Shown piece by piece: positions 23,591 to 34,141 of a stretch of 64,000 nucleotides of DNA. This DNA is from Gammaproteobacteria bacterium (GTDB lineage Bacteria; Pseudomonadota; Gammaproteobacteria; JAADGQ01): assembly GCA_021648145.1 (NCBI GenBank), contig JAKITI010000002.1, forward strand, positions 1 to 64,000. The letters are read 5' to 3'. Positions within the stretch are counted from its first letter, which is position 1. Each line of letters starts with the position of its first letter. Position numbers and translations under genes: made by a program. The notes beneath the pieces are model-generated. The model had not been told where the DNA came from. It did not search any database and worked only from the letters and a program-made list of their open reading frames with translations.

Positions 23591-24114
23591 CTCTTCGATG
23601 TCTGTTTCTTGTTATTGTTTTAAATATGATTGGCTGCGGCCAAAAAGAAGAGGTCGCGCTTGGTGGGGTTGTTGCTGGTTATGATTTTCCAGCGGTTGAG
23701 TTTGTAGATTTAGAAGGCAGTACAAGCTCCTTTTCTGAGTATGAAGGAAAGCTGGTTATATTGAATGTTTGGGCAACTTGGTGCCCACCATGTCGGCGTG
23801 AATTACCATCTTTAGAGCGACTTGGAGAAGCCCTTGATGAAAATCGCTTTGCCGTGAAATTTCTTTCAGTGGATAGTGATGAGCATGTAGTCAGAGAGTA
23901 TTTGATTGATGTGGGTTTTAAAATGAATAGCTTTATCGACAAGGAAGTGGAAATTGCAGGACAAGTTCTAGAGGTGATCTCTTACCCTGTGACCTATCTG
24001 ATATCACCACAAGGAAAAGTCATGCAAGTGGTCTATGGTGAGCGAGAGTGGGATAATGCAGTCGTTGTTGAAAAGCTGAAGCGTGCTTTTAGTAGTGGTA
24101 CTATTTCAATTTAA
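23587..24114 (+). CDS. TlpA/ResA-like thioredoxin lipoprotein, apparent CTG start
   Basis: The first in-frame ATG (23626) lies inside a hydrophobic signal. In frame upstream the sequence reads LTLRCLFLVIVLNMIGC, a lipoprotein signal with lipobox-like MIGC, and the only candidate start that keeps it is CTG at 23587. AGGTGATC (23577-23584) is well placed as a ribosome binding site, and the CTG overlaps the ccmI stop as CTGA, like the ATGA joints elsewhere in the operon. The thioredoxin motif is WATWCPPCRRELP (Cys66 and Cys69, counted from the CTG). It gives 175 residues, probably an extra periplasmic thiol reductase for cytochrome maturation. Confidence 0.85.
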   Translation: MTLRCLFLVIVLNMIGCGQKEEVALGGVVAGYDFPAVEFVDLEGSTSSFSEYEGKLVILNVWATWCPPCRRELPSLERLGEALDENRFAVKFLSVDSDEHVVREYLIDVGFKMNSFIDKEVEIAGQVLEVISYPVTYLISPQGKVMQVVYGEREWDNAVVVEKLKRAFSSGTISI

Positions 24115-24129
24115 TTTGAGGGTAAGTCA

Positions 24130-24447
24130 ATGAATTTAACCTTGTCTTTATGGGTCGTCCTTTGTCTTTTTTTATCTGTTTCAGGGGGCAGTGGCGATGT
24201 CTATGCAGCCGATTCGATAAAAGGCGGTAAAATATATCAACAACACTGCTCTAATTGCCATGGCTCACGGGGTGTGAGCAACATACCTGGGGTGGCTGAT
24301 TTTTCGCGTGGAGAAGGGCTGTTTAAATCTGATATTGAGTTGTTGAAATTATTGCAACGTGGTGTGGGCATGATGCCAGCCTACCAAGGTCGCCTTTCAG
24401 ATAAAAAGTTACTGGATGTTATTGCTTATATGAGAACTTTACGTTAA
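24130..24447 (+). CDS. Small monoheme cytochrome c
   Basis: This encodes 105 residues. The signal peptide ends near DVYAAD. The heme site is HCSNCHG (Cys40, Cys43, His44). The likely Met ligand is in GVGMMPAYQGRLSDKKLLDVIAYMRTL, the usual class I cytochrome c C-terminus. It is a periplasmic electron carrier, 15 bases after the TlpA-like gene and touching the next one, so probably in the same transcript. Confidence 0.92.
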   Translation: MNLTLSLWVVLCLFLSVSGGSGDVYAADSIKGGKIYQQHCSNCHGSRGVSNIPGVADFSRGEGLFKSDIELLKLLQRGVGMMPAYQGRLSDKKLLDVIAYMRTLR

Positions 24448-25610
24448 TGCCGTTTCGAATAATATTTTCAGGTCTGCTTGTATTGATGCTTGCGGGCTGC
24501 AGCTCTTCTGATGATAGTGAAGTAAAAGTATCTCAAGCTCCAGCTTCTTCAAATGACGAACAAAAAAGTATGCCTTTAAAAGCCGTTGCTTCGACTGTAA
24601 AGGCAAAAAACAGTCATGCTGTGCTAGATACTTTCGGTGTAGGCGAGAATGTTTATGTGCGTGCTTTAGCGGTCGAGTCATCGAACAATCATTTGTGGGT
24701 CGGTTCATCTGTCGGTGTGCTGGATATTGATTTGGAAAATCGGTCTCTTGTAAAAACACTGACGCGTGATGATGGGCTTGCAAATGAGTATGTTTTTGCA
24801 ATTGATATCGACAGTCAGGGTTATAAATGGTTTGGTACCAATGGTGGCGGAATGTCGCGTTATCGTGACGGGGAGTGGAAAACCTATTTTCCAATGCATG
24901 GTTTGGCCGATTATTGGATTTATGCTTTTGATGAAATGGCTAATGGTGATTTATGGATAGGCACATGGGCGGGTGCAAATCTCTTGAAAGCATCGACTGG
25001 AAAGTTGGAAACTTATGTTAAAGAGTTGGTGAATGAGTGGGTTTATGGCGTTGCAATTGATCAAAAACAGCGCGTCTGGTTTGCGACTGAAGGGGGCGTT
25101 TCCATGTTGGATGGGGATCAGTGGTCTTCATTTACGCATGCGGATGGTGTCGGCGCATCCAATGAATCAAATTTACCGATCAGTATTAACACAGGTCTTG
25201 GAACACGTTCACGCCATGACCTGAATATATTGTCAGAAGGCCGAGCCACATATAACCCAAGTTATGTATTTTGTGTCATGGTGGCTGCTGATGAGACTGT
25301 TTGGGCGGGTACATGGGGCGGCGGCGTTTCCTATTACGATGGCAGGGGCTGGAAAAACCTGACCGAGAACGATGGTTTAGCGGGTAATATTGTATACAGT
25401 ATTGCTCAAGATAAGAGTGGAGTCTTCTGGTTTGGAACGAATAAAGGCTTGTCAAGATTTGATGGGCAAACGTGGCAGACTTTTAATCGACATAATGGGC
25501 TCTTGGGGAATAGCGTCTATAGCGTGATTTCAACACCTGATGGTGAAATATGGGCGGGCACTAAGGGCGGCGTAGTACGGATTGGGAGAAAAATGGATGA
25601 AAATAAATGA
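24447..25610 (+). CDS. Reg_prop beta-propeller lipoprotein
   Basis: This encodes 387 residues. Lipoprotein signal: MPFRIIFSGLLVLMLAGC. At least six Reg_prop-type blades are visible, each ending with the pattern W-G/A-T-x-G-G: WVGSSVGVL, WFGTNGGGMSRY, WIGTWAGANLL, WFATEGGVSML, WAGTWGGGVSYY, WFGTNKGLSRF, WAGTKGGVVRI. An insertion of about 45 residues before YNPSYVFCV splits two blades. Reg_prop domains normally sense ligands in hybrid two-component sensors; here the propeller stands alone at a membrane. It overlaps the paralogous gene by four bases. Confidence 0.88.
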   Translation: MPFRIIFSGLLVLMLAGCSSSDDSEVKVSQAPASSNDEQKSMPLKAVASTVKAKNSHAVLDTFGVGENVYVRALAVESSNNHLWVGSSVGVLDIDLENRSLVKTLTRDDGLANEYVFAIDIDSQGYKWFGTNGGGMSRYRDGEWKTYFPMHGLADYWIYAFDEMANGDLWIGTWAGANLLKASTGKLETYVKELVNEWVYGVAIDQKQRVWFATEGGVSMLDGDQWSSFTHADGVGASNESNLPISINTGLGTRSRHDLNILSEGRATYNPSYVFCVMVAADETVWAGTWGGGVSYYDGRGWKNLTENDGLAGNIVYSIAQDKSGVFWFGTNKGLSRFDGQTWQTFNRHNGLLGNSVYSVISTPDGEIWAGTKGGVVRIGRKMDENK

Positions 25611-26839
25611 ATAGTAAACAGGAAACCAAAATTTTTGTACTTGTTATATTTGTAACATTTTTATTAATGATCGGTGCTTATTGTGTTGGTAAAAGTAAAG
25701 TTGAGCCGCCTGCTACTGTTGCAGACAAAGTATCAATATCGACTTCTCATGATGTGGCTTCAAAGAGTGAGCCAGCGGCTCACCCTGAAAAAAACCAGTT
25801 TACCCAGTTTGAAGTGGGTAACAGTAATGTTAAAACCATTTTGGTTGATGGCGATGTTGTCTGGATAGGAACATCTGGGGGGGTTATTCGTTATGATACG
25901 AGCAACGATAGTTACAAAATTTTTGATAATAAAATAGAAGGTCTTTTGTCCAATGGTATTTTCTACCTGAGAAAAATAGATCATCACTTATTTGTAGGAA
26001 CGTATGGTGGTGGGCTGTCTGTTTATAACACTGTGTTGGAGAAATGGAAAAATTATAGTGTGCCCCAAGGGTTAGGTGATCAGTTTGTTTATGATGTTAA
26101 ACAAGTATCTAACGGTGATATATGGATTGCGACCTGGTCAGGTGCTAATCGAATCAAAAAGGGTCAAATGGATGATTCAAAAAGCTGGGAAACTTATACA
26201 GTAGAAAATACACAAGGGGGTCTGCCTAATTTATGGGTGTATGGCATTCAGGAAGGAAAGAATGGTGAAATCTGGTTTGCGACCGAAGATGGTTTGGCTC
26301 GATATCATGATGGCAAATGGCAAAACTGGAAACACAAAGATGGGCTGGGTGCTTCGTACGATATTGTAAAAGATTCAATTCAGTTCACTAATGACCCAGG
26401 AAAAGTATCAACACATCATGCGCAGCAAAAAGTTGAGCAAGGTTTGAGTGATGTGGAGGTGGCATATAATCCAAACTACATTATTTCACTGGTCGTCGAC
26501 TCGAGCGGTATTGTCTGGTGTGGTACCTGGGGCGGAGGATTGGCACGCTTCGATGGCAAACATTGGAAAAACTACACAACCCGAGATGGTTTGCCTGCCA
26601 ATCATGTATTTATGCTTCATATTGATAAGAGTGAACAGCTGTGGATTGGAACCAGTAAAGGTTTGGCGCAGTTTAATAAGAAATCAGAAAGCTTTTCTGT
26701 GCTGACAACGGCGGATGGCCTGTATGCAGATAATGTTTTTTCAATGAGCGAGGCTGCAGATGGAAGTTTATGGGTGGGAAGTTTTGGGGGGGTCACGCAT
26801 TTAACTTTGTCTGGAATGGAACGGATAAAAAACAAGTAA
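25607..26839 (+). CDS. Reg_prop beta-propeller protein, membrane-anchored paralogue
   Basis: This encodes 410 residues and is related to the preceding gene over its whole propeller (WIGTSGGVIRY, GTYGGGLSVY, WIATWSGANRI, WFATEDGLARY, WCGTWGGGLARF, WIGTSKGLAQF, WVGSFGGVTHL). It has the same insertion before YNPNYIISL. It differs in the N-terminus, where an uncleaved helix (IFVLVIFVTFLLMIGAYCVG) replaces the lipobox signal. The tandem pair probably arose by duplication. Function is unknown; a sensory or scaffolding role in the periplasm is likely. The 200 bases that follow hold no gene. Confidence 0.87.
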   Translation: MNSKQETKIFVLVIFVTFLLMIGAYCVGKSKVEPPATVADKVSISTSHDVASKSEPAAHPEKNQFTQFEVGNSNVKTILVDGDVVWIGTSGGVIRYDTSNDSYKIFDNKIEGLLSNGIFYLRKIDHHLFVGTYGGGLSVYNTVLEKWKNYSVPQGLGDQFVYDVKQVSNGDIWIATWSGANRIKKGQMDDSKSWETYTVENTQGGLPNLWVYGIQEGKNGEIWFATEDGLARYHDGKWQNWKHKDGLGASYDIVKDSIQFTNDPGKVSTHHAQQKVEQGLSDVEVAYNPNYIISLVVDSSGIVWCGTWGGGLARFDGKHWKNYTTRDGLPANHVFMLHIDKSEQLWIGTSKGLAQFNKKSESFSVLTTADGLYADNVFSMSEAADGSLWVGSFGGVTHLTLSGMERIKNK

Positions 26840-27039
26840 ATATAAAACTATTGATTGTCATATTGAGATCTCTGTCATAAAACTCTGGTGAGGTTTGGTG
26901 TTAATGTGAGTAGCCAAGTGAATTTTTAAGTCAGGACTGATTGGAGCCGGAACAAGATGGATGTGGTTTGGTGTAATCAATGCTTATTGACGTATGATAC
27001 AAAATCAATAATCATCAGGTCGAATGTAGGGAGACTTAA

Positions 27040-29016
27040 ATGAATAGTCTGGGCATTCGTATTGTATTCATGGTTGCTTTCGTGCTGGCATTTCTTATGC
27101 TGCTAAGTGGCTTGTGGATCGACTGGCAGTTAAAATTGATTATCCTTGGGTGTTTCTTATGGGTCGCGTTTCAATACGGCGTAATCAGTTCTGTGGCACC
27201 GCTAAGAAACTTATTGATGCGTGTCGGAGGAGGGGGTCGCAGCGCGGCTTTACCTGAAACTCGAGTAGACGATGCTGAGTTTAATCGAATGAAGCGAGAG
27301 CTGGTTCGAAAAGAGAATCATATTCGCGGCATTATGGATAGTGTGGCAGACTCTATCGTGGTGACAGATGAGCAGGGTGTTATTGAATCTGTAAATTTAG
27401 TGGTATACAAAATGTTTGGTTACCAATCAAATGAGTTGGTAGGTCGTTCGATTAATGTATTAGTGCCTGAGCTCTTTGCTCAATCTCACGATCACTATGT
27501 TGAAAAATACCTTGTAAATGGAGCTGTGCCGATGGTCGGTGTGGAGCGTGAGCTTATAGGGCGGCGTAAAGATGCATCGACTTTTCCGGTAGAAATTTTT
27601 CTCAATGAAATAAATCTAGACCATCATCGCTATTTTGTTGCGACATTGTGCGATATTACAGAGAAAAAAAATCAGACTGCAATTTTAGAGTATCAGGCAT
27701 TACATGATGGTTTGACTGGGTTGGCCAATCGTGTTTTGTTTGGTGACTACCTTTATAAAGCAATTGCTGATGCGCGTCGTGATGATTCACGATTTGCACT
27801 GTTACTAATGGATCTGGATCGGTTTAAAGACATTAATGATACGCTTGGTCATCAAATCGGTGATATTTTGCTAAAAAAAGTTGCAGGGTTATTGCAAAAA
27901 ACTTTAAGTGAAGCAGATATGATTTCCCGCTTAGGTGGAGACGAATTTGCAATTTTATTGCATGGTTTTGATCGTGAGGCTGCGATTGAAGTCGCGCTAA
28001 AGCTTTATGAAGTGCTTGATCTACCTTTTGTTGTTGATGAGCAAGAAGGTTTAGCTTTGCATGTTGGGGTCAGCATAGGAATTACACTTTACCCTGAGCA
28101 TGGTGATGAAAGTGCTGCTGACTTATTGCGTAGAGCAGAAGTTGCAATGTACTGCGCAAAGCGCAGTCAAGATAATTATGCTGTCTATGATCCTGAGGAA
28201 GATGCTCATAGCCTTCAAAATTTGGCACTATTTGGACAATTACGCCATGCCGTTCGAAATGATCAGCTACAACTGTATTATCAGCCTAAAGTTAACGCAA
28301 AAAGTGGAGAGGCATCTAAGCTAGAGGTTTTGTTGCGTTGGATGCATCCTAAAAATGGCCTGATTTCTCCCGATCACTTTATTCCTCTTGCCGAACGTAC
28401 AGGCTTGATTGGTGAAATAACTTTGTGGGTCATTAAGGAGGCATTGGCGCAGTGCCGGGAATGGCGCAAGAAAGGTTTTGACTTAAGTGTTGCGGTTAAT
28501 ATATCAGTCATTAATTTGCAGGAGACTGGGTTTTCACAGGCTGTTGAGCAGCTCCTAGATAAAGAGTGCAGAGAACAGCAGTTACTCAGTTTTGAAATTA
28601 CTGAAACATCAATCATGCTTGAGCCAGAACGTGCTCTTAAAACCCTTGCATCTTTCAGTGATTTAGGAATCCGTTTATCAGTTGATGATTTTGGTACGGG
28701 CTATTCATCTTTAGCTTATTTAAAACAATTGCCTGTAAACGAGCTGAAAATTGATAAATCATTTATTCTCGGAGTGGCTAAAGATGCTGATGATGTAACC
28801 TTAGTGCGTTCAATGATTGATTTGGCGCATAATATGGGGTTGTCAGTGGTTGCTGAGGGTGTTGAAAACAGAGAAACTTGTGAAATGTTAACTGATTTTG
28901 GTTGTGAAGAGTTGCAAGGTAATTATATTTGCCCCCCTTTTCCTGCCAAGATACTAGAGCGCTGGTTGATTGAAAATCTCTCGACCTCTAAGCAGTTATG
29001 CCCTGTGGTGACATGA
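27040..29016 (+). CDS. Membrane PAS-GGDEF-EAL cyclic di-GMP protein
   Basis: This encodes 658 residues. Two N-terminal membrane helices are followed by a PAS domain (about 90-205, IRGIMDSVADSIVVTDEQG), a GGDEF domain (RLGGDEF, 297-303) and an EAL domain (LEVLLRW at 428-434). The GGDEF active site is intact and I see no RxxD inhibitory site upstream of it. EAL residues are also kept: NISVINL, EITET, DDFGTGYSSL, KIDKSF and AEGVEN; EVL replaces EAL, a common active variant. It probably makes or degrades c-di-GMP in response to a PAS signal. Its TGA stop is part of the target duplication of the element that follows. Confidence 0.93.
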   Translation: MNSLGIRIVFMVAFVLAFLMLLSGLWIDWQLKLIILGCFLWVAFQYGVISSVAPLRNLLMRVGGGGRSAALPETRVDDAEFNRMKRELVRKENHIRGIMDSVADSIVVTDEQGVIESVNLVVYKMFGYQSNELVGRSINVLVPELFAQSHDHYVEKYLVNGAVPMVGVERELIGRRKDASTFPVEIFLNEINLDHHRYFVATLCDITEKKNQTAILEYQALHDGLTGLANRVLFGDYLYKAIADARRDDSRFALLLMDLDRFKDINDTLGHQIGDILLKKVAGLLQKTLSEADMISRLGGDEFAILLHGFDREAAIEVALKLYEVLDLPFVVDEQEGLALHVGVSIGITLYPEHGDESAADLLRRAEVAMYCAKRSQDNYAVYDPEEDAHSLQNLALFGQLRHAVRNDQLQLYYQPKVNAKSGEASKLEVLLRWMHPKNGLISPDHFIPLAERTGLIGEITLWVIKEALAQCREWRKKGFDLSVAVNISVINLQETGFSQAVEQLLDKECREQQLLSFEITETSIMLEPERALKTLASFSDLGIRLSVDDFGTGYSSLAYLKQLPVNELKIDKSFILGVAKDADDVTLVRSMIDLAHNMGLSVVAEGVENRETCEMLTDFGCEELQGNYICPPFPAKILERWLIENLSTSKQLCPVVT

Positions 29017-29148
29017 TTTTGTAGCCGTTCAGAGCCCTTCTGAAACTCGCAATTTCTGCATTAAAAAATGATCATCTGCACTTGTAAACTCAAATTTTTC
29101 GCCTTGAACTGATGAATTTCAGAAGGACTCTGAACGGCTACTGATTTT
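29014..29148. mobile_element. Candidate MITE with 25-bp inverted repeats and 7-bp target duplication
   Basis: The 25-base arm at 29021-29045 (starts GTAGCCGTTCAGAG) matches the reverse complement of 29117-29141 at 24 of 25 positions. The 71-base interior has no reading frame. TGATTTT at 29014-29020 is repeated directly after the right arm at 29142-29148, as expected for a target duplication. The element lies between two convergent genes. In RNA the arms would form a long hairpin that could also end transcription from both sides. Confidence 0.75.
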
Positions 29149-29160
29149 AGGTATAAAGGT

Positions 29161-30252
29161 TTATTTTGGATCGACAGAGAAGGTCGCATACCCTTGGTTT
29201 TTATCGAGTGTGGCGGGCCTGAAAACATCAACCTTTCTGAAAAATTGATCTACGATATAGATACGTCCATCTTCATCCACATCAATATCTGCGGGTAACA
29301 TATACTTACCTGGAGAGCCTGCCTGGCTACGCTCACCGATGAACATGAGTAGTTCTCCTTGGCTGTTGAATATCTGGAAATTACCAAAGGCTGTATCAAC
29401 AACATATATGTTGCCAGCAGCATCAGTTGCGATGCCTTTAGGTCGTGCAAATTGCCCTGGCATTCTCCCAACAGAGCCGAAAGATTGCAGTACATTTCCA
29501 TTAGAGTCAAATTGTTGAACCCGAAAATTACCACCGTCAACGACATAAATTGAGCCATCAGGCGCTGTTGCTGCTTGTAATGGCAGGTTGAGTTCTCCTT
29601 GATCAGAGCCGCGCTTGCTGATTGTTTTGATGTGTTCTCCAGTCGTTGTATCAAATATCACGATCTGGTGATTCCTTGATGTGATGCCACCATTGTCTAC
29701 AACATAGGTGAGATTATTGGCAACAGCAACACTGACTGGGCGCTGTAACAACTGGCTGTTGCCAATGGTGCGCAAATAGCGCCCGTCACGATCATAGACT
29801 CTGATATGGCGAGCACTGATATCACAAACAAAAACCTCTCCCGACTCAGAGGTGTCAATGCCAATTGGCTTGATCAATTCACCGGGTGATTCAGTTCCGA
29901 TTGTAAAAAACCGCCCTTCAGGAATGTCGAATACAAATACAGTACGTTGAACCGTGTCTGTAACAAAAACTCGCCCTTGGTGAACCGATACGCCGTAGGG
30001 TTTAACCAGTCCTTTTACTTTAAGAGAGGTGCCAGTCGCAAAAGATTTGAAGCGCTCCAGTGAGCTTAATTGTTCGACATCGCTGCTGTAAATCAAGGTT
30101 CGTTCATAAATGAAGCGAGGTTGATCGGGCGCTGGCGGAAAAACAATAGGCGCAGATGCCTTGGGTTGCTCTGGTGTGGTTGAGCAGGCAGCGATGATTA
30201 ATGTGATGCAACTTAATAGTATCAGTATGTAGGTTCTGTATGAGTGAGTCAT
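29161..30252 (-). CDS. NHL-repeat beta-propeller lipoprotein
   Basis: This encodes 363 residues from ATG 30252, giving the lipoprotein signal MTHSYRTYILILLSCITLI followed by IAAC; a longer frame to 30276 adds eight residues. NHL repeats are seen as LVKPYGVSVHQGRVFVTDT, LIKPIGIDTSESGEVFVCD, LNLPLQAATAPDGSIYVVD, FARPKGIATDAAGNIYVVD and YMLPADIDVDEDGRIYIVD, making a six-bladed propeller. It is an exported lipoprotein. Its start overlaps the stop of the pentaheme cytochrome (TAATG), so the two are cotranscribed and may work as a pair. Confidence 0.88.
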   Translation of the reverse strand: MTHSYRTYILILLSCITLIIAACSTTPEQPKASAPIVFPPAPDQPRFIYERTLIYSSDVEQLSSLERFKSFATGTSLKVKGLVKPYGVSVHQGRVFVTDTVQRTVFVFDIPEGRFFTIGTESPGELIKPIGIDTSESGEVFVCDISARHIRVYDRDGRYLRTIGNSQLLQRPVSVAVANNLTYVVDNGGITSRNHQIVIFDTTTGEHIKTISKRGSDQGELNLPLQAATAPDGSIYVVDGGNFRVQQFDSNGNVLQSFGSVGRMPGQFARPKGIATDAAGNIYVVDTAFGNFQIFNSQGELLMFIGERSQAGSPGKYMLPADIDVDEDGRIYIVDQFFRKVDVFRPATLDKNQGYATFSVDPK

Positions 30253-30995
30253 TATTTGATATGGCAGGTTTCGCAAAGTCGGTCAGTACTGGTGCGCAGT
30301 AATAGGGCAACATCTGGGTTATGTACATTATGGCAAGTGGCACACTCCACTTTACCATCATAAAGTTTCACGCCGTTATCGAATCCATTCGGATTTTCTA
30401 TTGGCCAAAAGTCAGGATCTTTATGGTTTAGTCCTGCATACTCTATTGAAATGGGGTGGTCGTTGGCCAGCTCGGGACCAATTTGTTTAACCGCGATGTT
30501 GTGTGCTGCCTGGCCATTATGGCATTTGCCGCAGCTATTCAAATCATTTGAATCATTGATGGCCATATGTAGCGCAGCATCTTCACTGCTATTCCAGCCG
30601 TTTGGTTGAAATAGTGTCATATCAACGGCCATGGTGCCGTCATGGCAAGAGAGGCAAAGCAGGCTGATTGGGCTGGGCGTGCGAACCTTGTTATCGAGCA
30701 TTAAGCTGTCGTATAGCTCATAGCTGTCTGTTGCTGGGGTTAATCGATTCCAGCCAGGAATACCGCCAGCTTCAGAAGTATCCTCGTTTACCTTGTCTTC
30801 AGGTAAGTGGCAGTAAATACAAGATGAGCCGTAATCAGAAAAAGCAAGGCCAGACATCGCTTCAACACCCGCGCGAGCATTTAGTCCTGTAAAGTCATGT
30901 TTTGAACCAAGGATTGCATCACTATACGCTGATGAGCACCACAATCCAGCAAAAACAGTGAATAAAAAACATTCCTGAATTAGCTTTTTATGCAT
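30252..30995 (-). CDS. Pentaheme cytochrome c
   Basis: This encodes 247 residues from ATG 30995, giving the signal peptide MHKKLIQECFLFTVFAGLWC before SSAYSDA. Five CxxCH sites are present: CIYCH, CLSCH, CGKCH, CATCH and the near-terminal CETCH, the last two in the doubled-CxxCH style. No catalytic signature is visible, so it is most likely an electron-transfer protein. It is divergent from the other multiheme cytochrome and sits just upstream of the NHL lipoprotein gene. A longer frame to 31073 would overlap the opposite promoter region and is rejected. Confidence 0.9.
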   Translation of the reverse strand: MHKKLIQECFLFTVFAGLWCSSAYSDAILGSKHDFTGLNARAGVEAMSGLAFSDYGSSCIYCHLPEDKVNEDTSEAGGIPGWNRLTPATDSYELYDSLMLDNKVRTPSPISLLCLSCHDGTMAVDMTLFQPNGWNSSEDAALHMAINDSNDLNSCGKCHNGQAAHNIAVKQIGPELANDHPISIEYAGLNHKDPDFWPIENPNGFDNGVKLYDGKVECATCHNVHNPDVALLLRTSTDRLCETCHIK

Positions 30996-31151: not shown

Positions 31152-31982
31152 ATGAGGCAAACTTTGAGAGTAATTTTTATTGCAGGGATTTTTACAGCTT
31201 CATCTGCTGTGTGTGCAGAAGAGGGTGGTGCGGAGGCGGCTGTAAAAAAAGCGGTGGCGACGGCTGTAATGAAAAGTACATCGGACTTGGCTCGTGGCCA
31301 GAAAATTTATGCGGATAACTGTTCTGTATGTCATGGTGATAAAGGGGTGGGTTCAAAATGGACGCGCAATACGTTGAATCCATCGCCTCGTGACTTCACA
31401 TCTCCGTTAGCGGTGACTGAATTAACTCGTGAACGAATGTTGCAGGCAGTGATCGCTGGGCGAGAAGGGAGTGCCATGGTCTCTTATTTGGGTGATTTAT
31501 CTATCTCTGATGTGATTGCCGTAGTTGATTTTATTCGCAGTGAATTCATGAGACCACAGTCTGAAAACAATCACCCTCATGTAGCAGGGGCGCATCAGTC
31601 TACACGCGAGATACAGAAAGCTGTTGATATGCAACTTCCTTTTGATGATAGTTTTGTTGGTGAGGTGATTACTGGACGTCATCTCTATCTGGGGAATTGC
31701 GCGGCATGTCATGGTGTGGATGGCGATGGACTGGGTGATCGAAAGTCAGCGAGTCAGCCACTTCCGCGTAATTTTTTATCTACTGAGTCACGTCAAATAT
31801 TGAATCGCCCCGCTTTATATAAAGGTATCGCTGAAGGTAAGAATGGAACCGTAATGCCTTCATGGGCGCGCGTTTTTACCAATCAGGAAATAGTCGATGT
31901 AGCAGAGTACGTTTTTCAAACCTTTATTGACCCCGTTGAGAGTCATGTTGATGAAGGAAAAAAAAAAGTGATAACGCATTAG
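31152..31982 (+). CDS. Multiheme cytochrome c, N-terminal part (two hemes)
   Basis: This encodes 276 residues from ATG 31152, giving the signal peptide MRQTLRVIFIAGIFTASSAV ending before CAEE. Two class I cytochrome c domains follow, with CSVCH (residue 57) and CAACH (residue 183). The frame runs through ten A residues at 31958-31967 and stops four codons later (VITH, then TAG). The -1 frame carries on into the next open frame without a stop. I think this is the front part of a five-heme protein of about 571 residues, interrupted by a frameshift. Confidence 0.85.
   Translation: MRQTLRVIFIAGIFTASSAVCAEEGGAEAAVKKAVATAVMKSTSDLARGQKIYADNCSVCHGDKGVGSKWTRNTLNPSPRDFTSPLAVTELTRERMLQAVIAGREGSAMVSYLGDLSISDVIAVVDFIRSEFMRPQSENNHPHVAGAHQSTREIQKAVDMQLPFDDSFVGEVITGRHLYLGNCAACHGVDGDGLGDRKSASQPLPRNFLSTESRQILNRPALYKGIAEGKNGTVMPSWARVFTNQEIVDVAEYVFQTFIDPVESHVDEGKKKVITH
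31958..31967 (+). other. A10 run at the frameshift point of the cytochrome gene
   Basis: Ten consecutive A residues lie four codons before the stop of the upstream frame. Shifting by -1 here continues as KSDNALDLLAQGREIYNLRC, directly into the CYFCH heme domain. It could be a slippage site for polymerase or ribosome, a real indel, or a homopolymer sequencing error. Confidence 0.7.
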
Positions 31983-31984
31983 AT

Positions 31985-32866
31985 TTGTTAGCTCAAGGGC
32001 GAGAAATTTATAATTTACGCTGTTATTTTTGTCATGGTTACAGTGGTAATGCAAAAACATTAGCGACGACTTATTTGAAACCAGAGCCTCGTGACTTTAC
32101 AGCAATGCAGTCTGGTGAAATGAGTGCACAGTCAATGTTTGATGTTGTAAAAAATGGCAAACTGGGAACTGCTATGAATGGTTTTAGTTATTTGTTGAGC
32201 GATCAGGAGATAATGGCAGTGGTTAAGTTTATTACTGCAGCATTTATGGAAAATAAGCAAATTAATACCTATTACCATATAGATGAAAATGGCTGGGGAG
32301 AGCATGAGCGTTATGCGGTTGCTTTTCCTTTTGTTCGAGGTGAAATTTTGCTCGATACGCCATGGGAGCATTTAACTGAAGAGCAAGTGGAAGGGAAGCG
32401 GTTATTTATGTCGGGGTGTGTGACCTGTCATGATCGGGCTTATGTGAATAACAAAGAGGTTAAGTGGCAGTCTCGTTCTGTTTCATATCCTCGTGGTAAA
32501 TATTCTCACAAAGATGCAGTGTCTTTAGTTGATGATGTGTTAGGTGCCAGCCCATTCTCTGCACATGATCTCTCTCCTCAAATTCCAGATTTAACAGTGA
32601 AGGAGCGGCAGGGGCAATCACTTTTTGTTGAAAATTGTGCTTTTTGTCATGGCGGTGATGGAAAAGGAGTAAACTGGATTGGTAGCTTTTTAGAGTCTCG
32701 GCCACGTGATTTGACCAGTGATGATGTTGAATCCGTTTCGGATTTGGTTTTGTTTAATATGATTCGAGAAGGTGTACCAAATACAACAATGCCTGCTTGG
32801 AAAAATGTATTAACTGATGAGCAGATTGAAACTTTGATGGTTTATATTCGTCGTGCTTTTCACTGA
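31985..32866 (+). CDS. Multiheme cytochrome c, C-terminal part (three hemes)
   Basis: This frame encodes 293 residues from a TTG at 31985, but no ribosome binding site or signal peptide precedes it. CYFCH (residue 13), CVTCH (145) and CAFCH (218) mark three heme sites. The first cytochrome domain would begin at the very first residue, so the natural protein must start upstream. The frame is open back to the A10 run of the preceding gene. Without export by the upstream signal peptide this part could not receive heme from the Ccm system, so it is best read as the continuation of that gene. Confidence 0.8.
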   Translation: MLAQGREIYNLRCYFCHGYSGNAKTLATTYLKPEPRDFTAMQSGEMSAQSMFDVVKNGKLGTAMNGFSYLLSDQEIMAVVKFITAAFMENKQINTYYHIDENGWGEHERYAVAFPFVRGEILLDTPWEHLTEEQVEGKRLFMSGCVTCHDRAYVNNKEVKWQSRSVSYPRGKYSHKDAVSLVDDVLGASPFSAHDLSPQIPDLTVKERQGQSLFVENCAFCHGGDGKGVNWIGSFLESRPRDLTSDDVESVSDLVLFNMIREGVPNTTMPAWKNVLTDEQIETLMVYIRRAFH

Positions 32867-32978: not shown

Positions 32979-33344
32979 ATGAACTTTGAAGGGAGAGTAG
33001 AAAACATATTGAAAGAGCTAAAGTATAGAAATCCCAGTATCAGAGGGAGTGCGTTAGTTTCTGGAGATGGTTTGGCTATTGTCAGTATGTTGCCAAATGA
33101 ATTTGAAGCCGATCGGGTTGCGGGTATGAATTCAGTGCTTTTGAGTATTGGTATTAGTTCAAGTGCGGAGTTAAATCTGGGTAATGTAGAGCAGCTAATG
33201 ATTCGTGGTGAAAATGGACATTTGATTGTTTCAAGTGTTGCAGATGGTGCAATGTTACTTGTGCTGACGGATGAAGATGTGAAACTGGGCGCTGTATTCT
33301 ACTTTATGAAGCGTGCGCTAAAAGAACTTCGAGAAGTGCTTTAA
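32979..33344 (+). CDS. Roadblock/LC7-domain protein
   Basis: This encodes 121 residues, a single roadblock/LC7 domain: VENILKELKYRNPSIRGSAL, VSGDGLAIVSMLPN, then the central helix and VEQLMIRGENGHLIVSSVADGAMLLVLTDEDVKLGAVFYFMKRA. Such proteins usually dimerise and regulate small Ras-like GTPases such as MglA. No GTPase gene is in the window. GGGAGAG precedes the ATG. It lies 35 bases before the metallo-beta-lactamase-fold gene and is probably cotranscribed. Confidence 0.88.
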   Translation: MNFEGRVENILKELKYRNPSIRGSALVSGDGLAIVSMLPNEFEADRVAGMNSVLLSIGISSSAELNLGNVEQLMIRGENGHLIVSSVADGAMLLVLTDEDVKLGAVFYFMKRALKELREVL

Positions 33345-33379
33345 ATTCAACTAGTGAAGTAAATTAGAGGGCGTTCTTC

Positions 33380-34141
33380 ATGTCATCAAAGGTATTGTTT
33401 GAAAGTGGGCAACATAAAAACATTTTATTGGAAGATTTTGGGCGTGGTGAGGCTGTTCAGGCAAATCAGCACCTTATTATTCACGGTAATGAGTCGATCA
33501 TTCTTGATCCTGGTGGGCATAAAGTGTTTGCTAAAGCACTGTCTGAGGCGAAAAAACAGTTATCAGGTGTGCCAATAACTTATCTATTTTTTTCTCACCA
33601 AGATCCCGATATTGTTGCAGCGGCAAATGGTTGGTTGATGACAACGCGTGCGACTGCATATGCGCCTGAAATATGGATGCGTTTTATTCCTCATTTTGGA
33701 GTTGATAAGTTCGTGATTAACCAGCTCAACGGGATCCCTGATGAAGGAATGCGCCTTAATATGGGAGGGGCAGAGTTGATTTTTTTACCCGCACACTACC
33801 TGCATTCTTGTGGTAATTTTCATGTATATGATTCAGTATCCAAAATTTTGTATAGTGGTGACTTAGGGGCATCACTCGGCATGGATTATTACAAAGTTTC
33901 TGATTTTGATGATCATGTTCAGTATATGGAAGGTTTTCATCGGCGCTATATGACGAGTAATGTGGCTATGAAAGCGTGGGCTAAAATGGTTCGAAGCCTT
34001 GATATAGAGATGATAGCGCCTCAGCATGGGGCGTATTTTGAAGGAAAAACTATGGTTAATCAATTTATTGATTGGTGTGATCAGTTGCAGTGTGGGCTTG
34101 ATATTAATGGGGGTATTTATAAAGTGCCTAGTTCTGTTTAG
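33380..34141 (+). CDS. Diiron metallo-beta-lactamase-fold protein (ODP-like)
   Basis: This encodes 253 residues. Metal ligands fit flavodiiron-type beta-lactamase folds: SHQDPD with His73, Asp75 and Asp77, then His139 in LPAHYLHSCGNFH, Asp in YSGDLGAS near 158 and His216 in APQHGAYF. No flavodoxin domain follows, so it resembles the stand-alone oxygen-binding diiron proteins described as sensors in chemotaxis. The residue after HQDPD is Ile, where many relatives have His. The role is inferred: O2 or NO sensing, or reduction. Confidence 0.8.
   Translation: MSSKVLFESGQHKNILLEDFGRGEAVQANQHLIIHGNESIILDPGGHKVFAKALSEAKKQLSGVPITYLFFSHQDPDIVAAANGWLMTTRATAYAPEIWMRFIPHFGVDKFVINQLNGIPDEGMRLNMGGAELIFLPAHYLHSCGNFHVYDSVSKILYSGDLGASLGMDYYKVSDFDDHVQYMEGFHRRYMTSNVAMKAWAKMVRSLDIEMIAPQHGAYFEGKTMVNQFIDWCDQLQCGLDINGGIYKVPSSV

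Follow-up and report, generated by a model that had tools for sequence, protein, structure and literature searches.

The split cytochrome gene and its neighbourhood

On the forward strand of the window, that is, the whole 64,000-nucleotide stretch of DNA analysed, two adjoining open reading frames in different phase resemble the halves of one multiheme cytochrome c. ORF1 (31152..31982, 276 aa), the N-terminal half, matches Pfam Cytochrome_CBB3 / Cytochrom_C and carries a Sec signal peptide predicted by inspection of the sequence (MRQTLRVIFIAGIFTASSAVCA, 31152..31217) and two CxxCH heme sites, CSVCH (31320..31334) and CAACH (31698..31712). Near its end lies a candidate slippage run of ten A residues (A10, 31958..31967), the only A-run of at least nine in the window, which frame 0 reads as (GG)A AAA AAA AAA. 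Across the junction this frame runs ...GAA GGA AAA AAA AAA GTG ATA ACG CAT TAG, with the tail GTG ATA ACG CAT TAG at 31968..31982 and the stop codon at 31980-31982, and the short form terminates in KKKVITH. ORF2 (31968..32866), the C-terminal half, recognized by Pfam and by tblastn to relatives, lies in the -1 frame, which is open from 31967 through the stop ending at 32866, and holds three CxxCH sites, CYFCH (32021..32035), CVTCH (32417..32431) and CAFCH (32636..32650). It opens directly at a heme domain, has no signal peptide, and the earliest start codon in its open frame, TTG at 31985, is not preceded by a Shine-Dalgarno sequence. A -1 shift within A10 joins the halves without an intervening stop into 571 residues with five CxxCH sites. 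Both halves score above the Pfam cut-offs (PF00034 / PF13442), their CxxCH sites standing in a class-I-type domain context (2 + 3). No solved structure of the shifted cytochrome was found. The first-pass annotation of this DNA had been accurate on these points: its coordinates and counts for ORF1 (a signal peptide, two CxxCH sites, a stop four codons past A10) were right, the reading frame confirmed its ORF2 with three CxxCH sites, a heme domain at the start and neither signal peptide nor ribosome site, and the approximately 571 residues it expected of a -1 shift correspond to the joined product.

Two reverse-strand genes adjoin the shifted gene in divergent orientation, in the window as in most surveyed loci: one for a doubled-CXXCH multiheme cytochrome with five CxxCH sites (30252..30989; Pfam Paired_CXXCH_1; cluster in 55 surveyed loci) and one for an NHL-repeat beta-propeller, a probable lipoprotein (29161..30276; Pfam NHL; cluster in 65 surveyed loci). 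Two regulator-propeller proteins, a monoheme cytochrome and a thioredoxin-like protein are also encoded upstream in the window. As read from its sequence, the neighbourhood fits an electron-transfer cluster, within which the shifted protein may act as an electron carrier. The Uet cluster for extracellular electron uptake combines undecaheme and tetraheme cytochromes, a peptidylprolyl isomerase, a porin and NHL proteins, and the NHL protein and the multiheme neighbour are reminiscent of it. The complete interval 23626-30989 comprises genes for the thioredoxin-like protein, the monoheme cytochrome c, the two regulator-propeller proteins, a PAS-GGDEF-EAL protein, the NHL protein and the five-CxxCH cytochrome. 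On the other side, at 32979-34141, a Roadblock/LC7 protein is followed by an ODP-family protein of the metallo-beta-lactamase fold, each of which clusters with one other surveyed locus only.

The junction and the two halves in relatives

We surveyed 370 gammaproteobacterial genomes for ORF2 at a threshold of E <= 1e-50 and found homologues in 41; in 30 of these, spanning 13 families, an unbroken A9 or A10 marks the junction and the halves stand in the -1 relation. A scan in which each species was represented by one genome returned 80 loci, and many of the surveyed loci come from metagenome-assembled genomes. Because loci were picked through ORF2 homology, the run itself was not a selection criterion. 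Among 47 distinct junction sequences, a count that includes one added by hand (L086), the run measures just 9 or 10 residues, never of a frame-joining length, and the same shift is always needed. A9 occurs in phase 0 at 38 junctions and in phase 1 at 3, and A10 in phase 1 at 3, in phase 2 at 2 and in phase 0 at 1. A protein search of related genomes revealed the two-piece -1 layout also in the other genome of the window's genus, although its ORF2 is only 80% identical, and in the family; the run length in close relatives, a check proposed in the first-pass annotation, is A9 or A10 there with the same -1 relation. The annotation had erred in taking 9 or 12 A as in-frame lengths; it is 8 or 11 A that would align the halves.

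At the 38 phase-0 A9 junctions, the exclusive use of AAA for the lysine codons corresponds to log10 P of about -40, calculated with each locus's own codon use and ignoring shared ancestry. Only four other A/T runs of at least nine occur in 385 kb flanking 31 shifted loci. The window's genome (41% GC) has about 72 such A/T runs, and of 30 inspected, 22 lie inside ORFs, mostly undisrupted. Thus A9 is not very rare and is tolerated in coding sequence, so the run alone proves nothing and conservation has to carry the argument. A further A9 of this genome, close to the end of an ORF (G000:C8:49032, L199), was rejected as a candidate, with no long open frame beyond it in the shifted frames. In the ORF2 tree the shifted class is spread over deep gammaproteobacterial lineages and about six changes are needed; as the root was not inferred, we make no claim on which state is ancestral.

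The dN/dS values of nine pairs, about 0.08-0.23 for ORF1 and about 0.04-0.24 for ORF2, indicate that purifying selection acts on both halves. Three CxxCH sites are present in ORF2 in 46/46 shifted loci, while ORF1 has three in 41 and two in the window's genus. With a crude scan for signal peptides (a start codon, then a hydrophobic stretch), a signal peptide-like start was detected on ORF2 in 0/46 shifted loci versus 47/47 loci in which ORF2 is a separate gene, the latter mostly from Betaproteobacteria with some from Gammaproteobacteria and Magnetococcales. Since c-type cytochromes receive their heme in the periplasm, a shifted ORF2 without a signal peptide would be useful only within the fusion, which would be the sole route for export of the C-terminal hemes. 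The fusion is evidently what selection maintains. Relatives with two signal-peptide genes, put forward in the first-pass annotation as a refutation, do exist in the form of these 47 loci, but they refute nothing, because a comparable number of loci keep the shifted layout with no signal peptide on ORF2.

Other layouts were also encountered. In L142 (genome G177), a single open frame of 664 codons, which includes a signal peptide but lacks a poly-A run, encodes a cytochrome with all six hemes. Three more loci taken for in-frame fusions (L068, L090, L102) were rejected as chance open frames with no CxxCH upstream. In a distinct lineage (L134, L141, L146), a lone ORF2 with its own signal peptide directly follows a regulator-propeller-like gene, and ORF1 was not found beside it.

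A second kind of site was identified in one genus, g68 of family f66, where two loci (L135, L148) have the -1 overlap and an ORF2 without signal peptide at a junction with no poly-A run. These stood as unexplained overlaps until further genomes of the family revealed a common heptamer, G_GGA_AAG. A9 is retained by the genera of f66 other than g68. Nine g68 loci were read, and they form a supported clade (100/99): one has A9 alone (L159), L162 has A9 and L161 has A8 together with G_GGA_AAG, and six have the heptamer alone (L135, L148, L157, L163, L166, L169). All eight loci bearing the heptamer have it in the correct phase, and GGAG or GGGG is located 11-14 nt upstream in 8/8; a stimulatory role of this element is only suggestive, as it may reflect the coding of the shared tail. 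An A-run shorter than nine appears solely where G_GGA_AAG is also present, as would be expected of functional redundancy. As G_GGA_AAG has been named highly shift-prone in E. coli (PMC5009743), ribosomes would be expected to shift at it in g68.

Proposed transcriptional slippage and its alternatives

We interpret the two frames as a single gene encoding a periplasmic multiheme cytochrome c of class-I type, with a programmed -1 transition that would be accomplished by RNA polymerase slippage, a reading to which we assign a probability of roughly 0.8. RNA polymerase slipping on A9 or A10 would insert one A in part of the transcripts. mRNA without the slip would yield a short exported protein with two hemes (three in most relatives) that ends in KKK and a few residues, and mRNA with the slip the fusion, in which the three further hemes of ORF2 follow behind the single signal peptide; the ratio of short to long product would presumably be set at this step. 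In the poly-A members we favour RNA polymerase over the ribosome as the probable slipping agent because runs of at least nine occur in three codon phases, whereas a ribosome needs just 7 or 8 residues in two, and because nine is the efficient slippage length in bacteria, insertion of a single A is usual and no stimulator stands out. A/T runs of nine slip efficiently in bacterial transcription (PMC1088944, PMC5009743), and the usual slip at E. coli A/T runs is the insertion of a single A (PMC5574713), which is exactly the shift required at the cytochrome junction. An upstream Shine-Dalgarno-like element of at least 5 nt was found in 4/45 loci of the poly-A class, not above background, and no clear structure was detected downstream (mean z of -0.71 vs -0.33 in the control region; z = -1.04 for the fold downstream of the run in the window). 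Among the causes suggested in the first-pass annotation, the one that conservation across Gammaproteobacteria strongly supports is programmed slippage with a short and a long form as its products.

The same two products would arise without any RNA polymerase slippage if ribosomes underwent a programmed -1 shift on A_AAA_AAA, a heptamer that every member has in frame. Frameshifting in E. coli cassettes amounted to 10% at an A7 site and 40% at an A9 site, values whose cause is not separated in the passage that gives them (PMC3711429), and a ribosomal-type heptamer stands at the same junction in g68. Nevertheless, 7 A in phase 2 or 8 in phase 1 would suffice for a ribosomal site, and runs below nine are absent from the 47 junctions; the sole A8, found later, comes with a second heptamer. 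The background-level upstream element and the lack of clear downstream structure in the poly-A class also speak against purely ribosomal shifting, which we regard as unlikely. Since both mechanisms give the same shift and A_AAA_AAA is present in every run, sequence alone does not separate RNA polymerase from the ribosome, and a mixed mechanism may operate.

The remaining alternatives deny a programmed shift. Homopolymers are prone to error and the genomes include many draft assemblies from metagenomes, yet the out-of-frame relation recurs in independent assemblies across 13 families, including G219, a genome of two contigs in which it lies on one of 3.66 Mb. Within the window's genus both genomes agree despite their divergence in ORF2, other A9 runs sampled in the window's genome leave their frames intact, and purifying selection on both halves opposes an error as much as a decaying pseudogene. 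A sequencing or assembly error or a pseudogene is thus hardly credible for the window and already refuted for the family; the frameshift is real. Homopolymers are also hypermutable, and changes of run length between cells could toggle the fusion by phase variation at the DNA level. A phase-variable tract would, however, sample all three frames, while the 47 junctions never have an in-frame length and always use the same off frame, which makes phase variation very improbable. Mutation with phase variation and sequencing error, the other two causes suggested in the first-pass annotation, are therefore both contradicted by the constancy of run length and frame relation. Finally, ORF2 might be translated on its own, by internal initiation or by re-initiation past the ORF1 stop, and separate ORF1 and ORF2 genes are indeed the rule in Betaproteobacteria and occur in some Gammaproteobacteria. 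All such separate ORF2 genes bear a signal peptide, in contrast to the shifted ones, and an ORF2 product left in the cytoplasm could not receive c-type hemes; we give independent translation next to no weight.

Taking slippage by RNA polymerase as the preferred reading for the poly-A members, we lean towards a wider scenario in which an old slippage site sets the ratio of short to long carrier across much of Gammaproteobacteria. One genus would be shifting to ribosomal frameshifting through intermediates that combine an A-run with G_GGA_AAG, the product being kept.

Comparison with known systems

With other proteins of the Cytochrome_CBB3 / Cytochrom_C type (PF13442, PF00034), such as CcoP and the cytochrome subunits of quinone-dependent alcohol dehydrogenases, the cytochrome shares serial monoheme class-I-type domains, and it differs from them in having no equivalog-level NCBIfam match, all scores being far below cut-off. 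The list of bacterial slippage genes is dominated by IS elements, and the cytochrome would add a respiratory or electron-transfer protein to it. Because such genes resemble two proteins or one broken one, in many genomes one half of a conserved cytochrome may go unnoticed or be misinterpreted. Slippage in transcription and frameshifting on the ribosome are both already known mechanisms; the unusual feature is the switch within a genus. No report of either for this cytochrome family was found in the main texts of the literature searched.

The magnesium chelatase fs-genes (Antonov et al. 2013, PMC3711429) likewise have a -1 transition at a poly-A run of 7-11, are annotated as two neighbouring genes, exist as in-frame fusions in other taxa and include an A9 site for which a 40% shift was measured in E. 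coli. They encode a different protein and their runs vary in length (7, 9 and 11 residues), whereas the cytochrome run is held at 9-10; no cytochrome is named in the main text of that study. G_GGA_AAG, which we take to be phage lambda's own frameshift site, is confined to the genus g68, and the window is without this heptamer. The likeness to lambda gpG/gpGT is a -1 ribosomal frameshift that yields a short and a C-terminally extended protein (PMC5009743).

A close parallel in mechanism is dnaX, which relies on A9 transcriptional slippage in Thermus thermophilus and on a ribosomal -1 frameshift in E. coli (PMC1088944, PMC5009743). Common to both systems are a nine-A run and, for the cytochrome on our reading, a short and a long product of one gene and homologues that use either RNA polymerase or the ribosome. 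The gene families are unrelated, and in dnaX the long form is that of the unslipped frame, while the long cytochrome requires the slip. Furthermore, the cytochrome has both kinds of site within one genus, and in some members within one gene. The genus g68 could serve as a natural experiment for following the replacement of one recoding mechanism by another, a change for which dnaX provides examples only between distant taxa.
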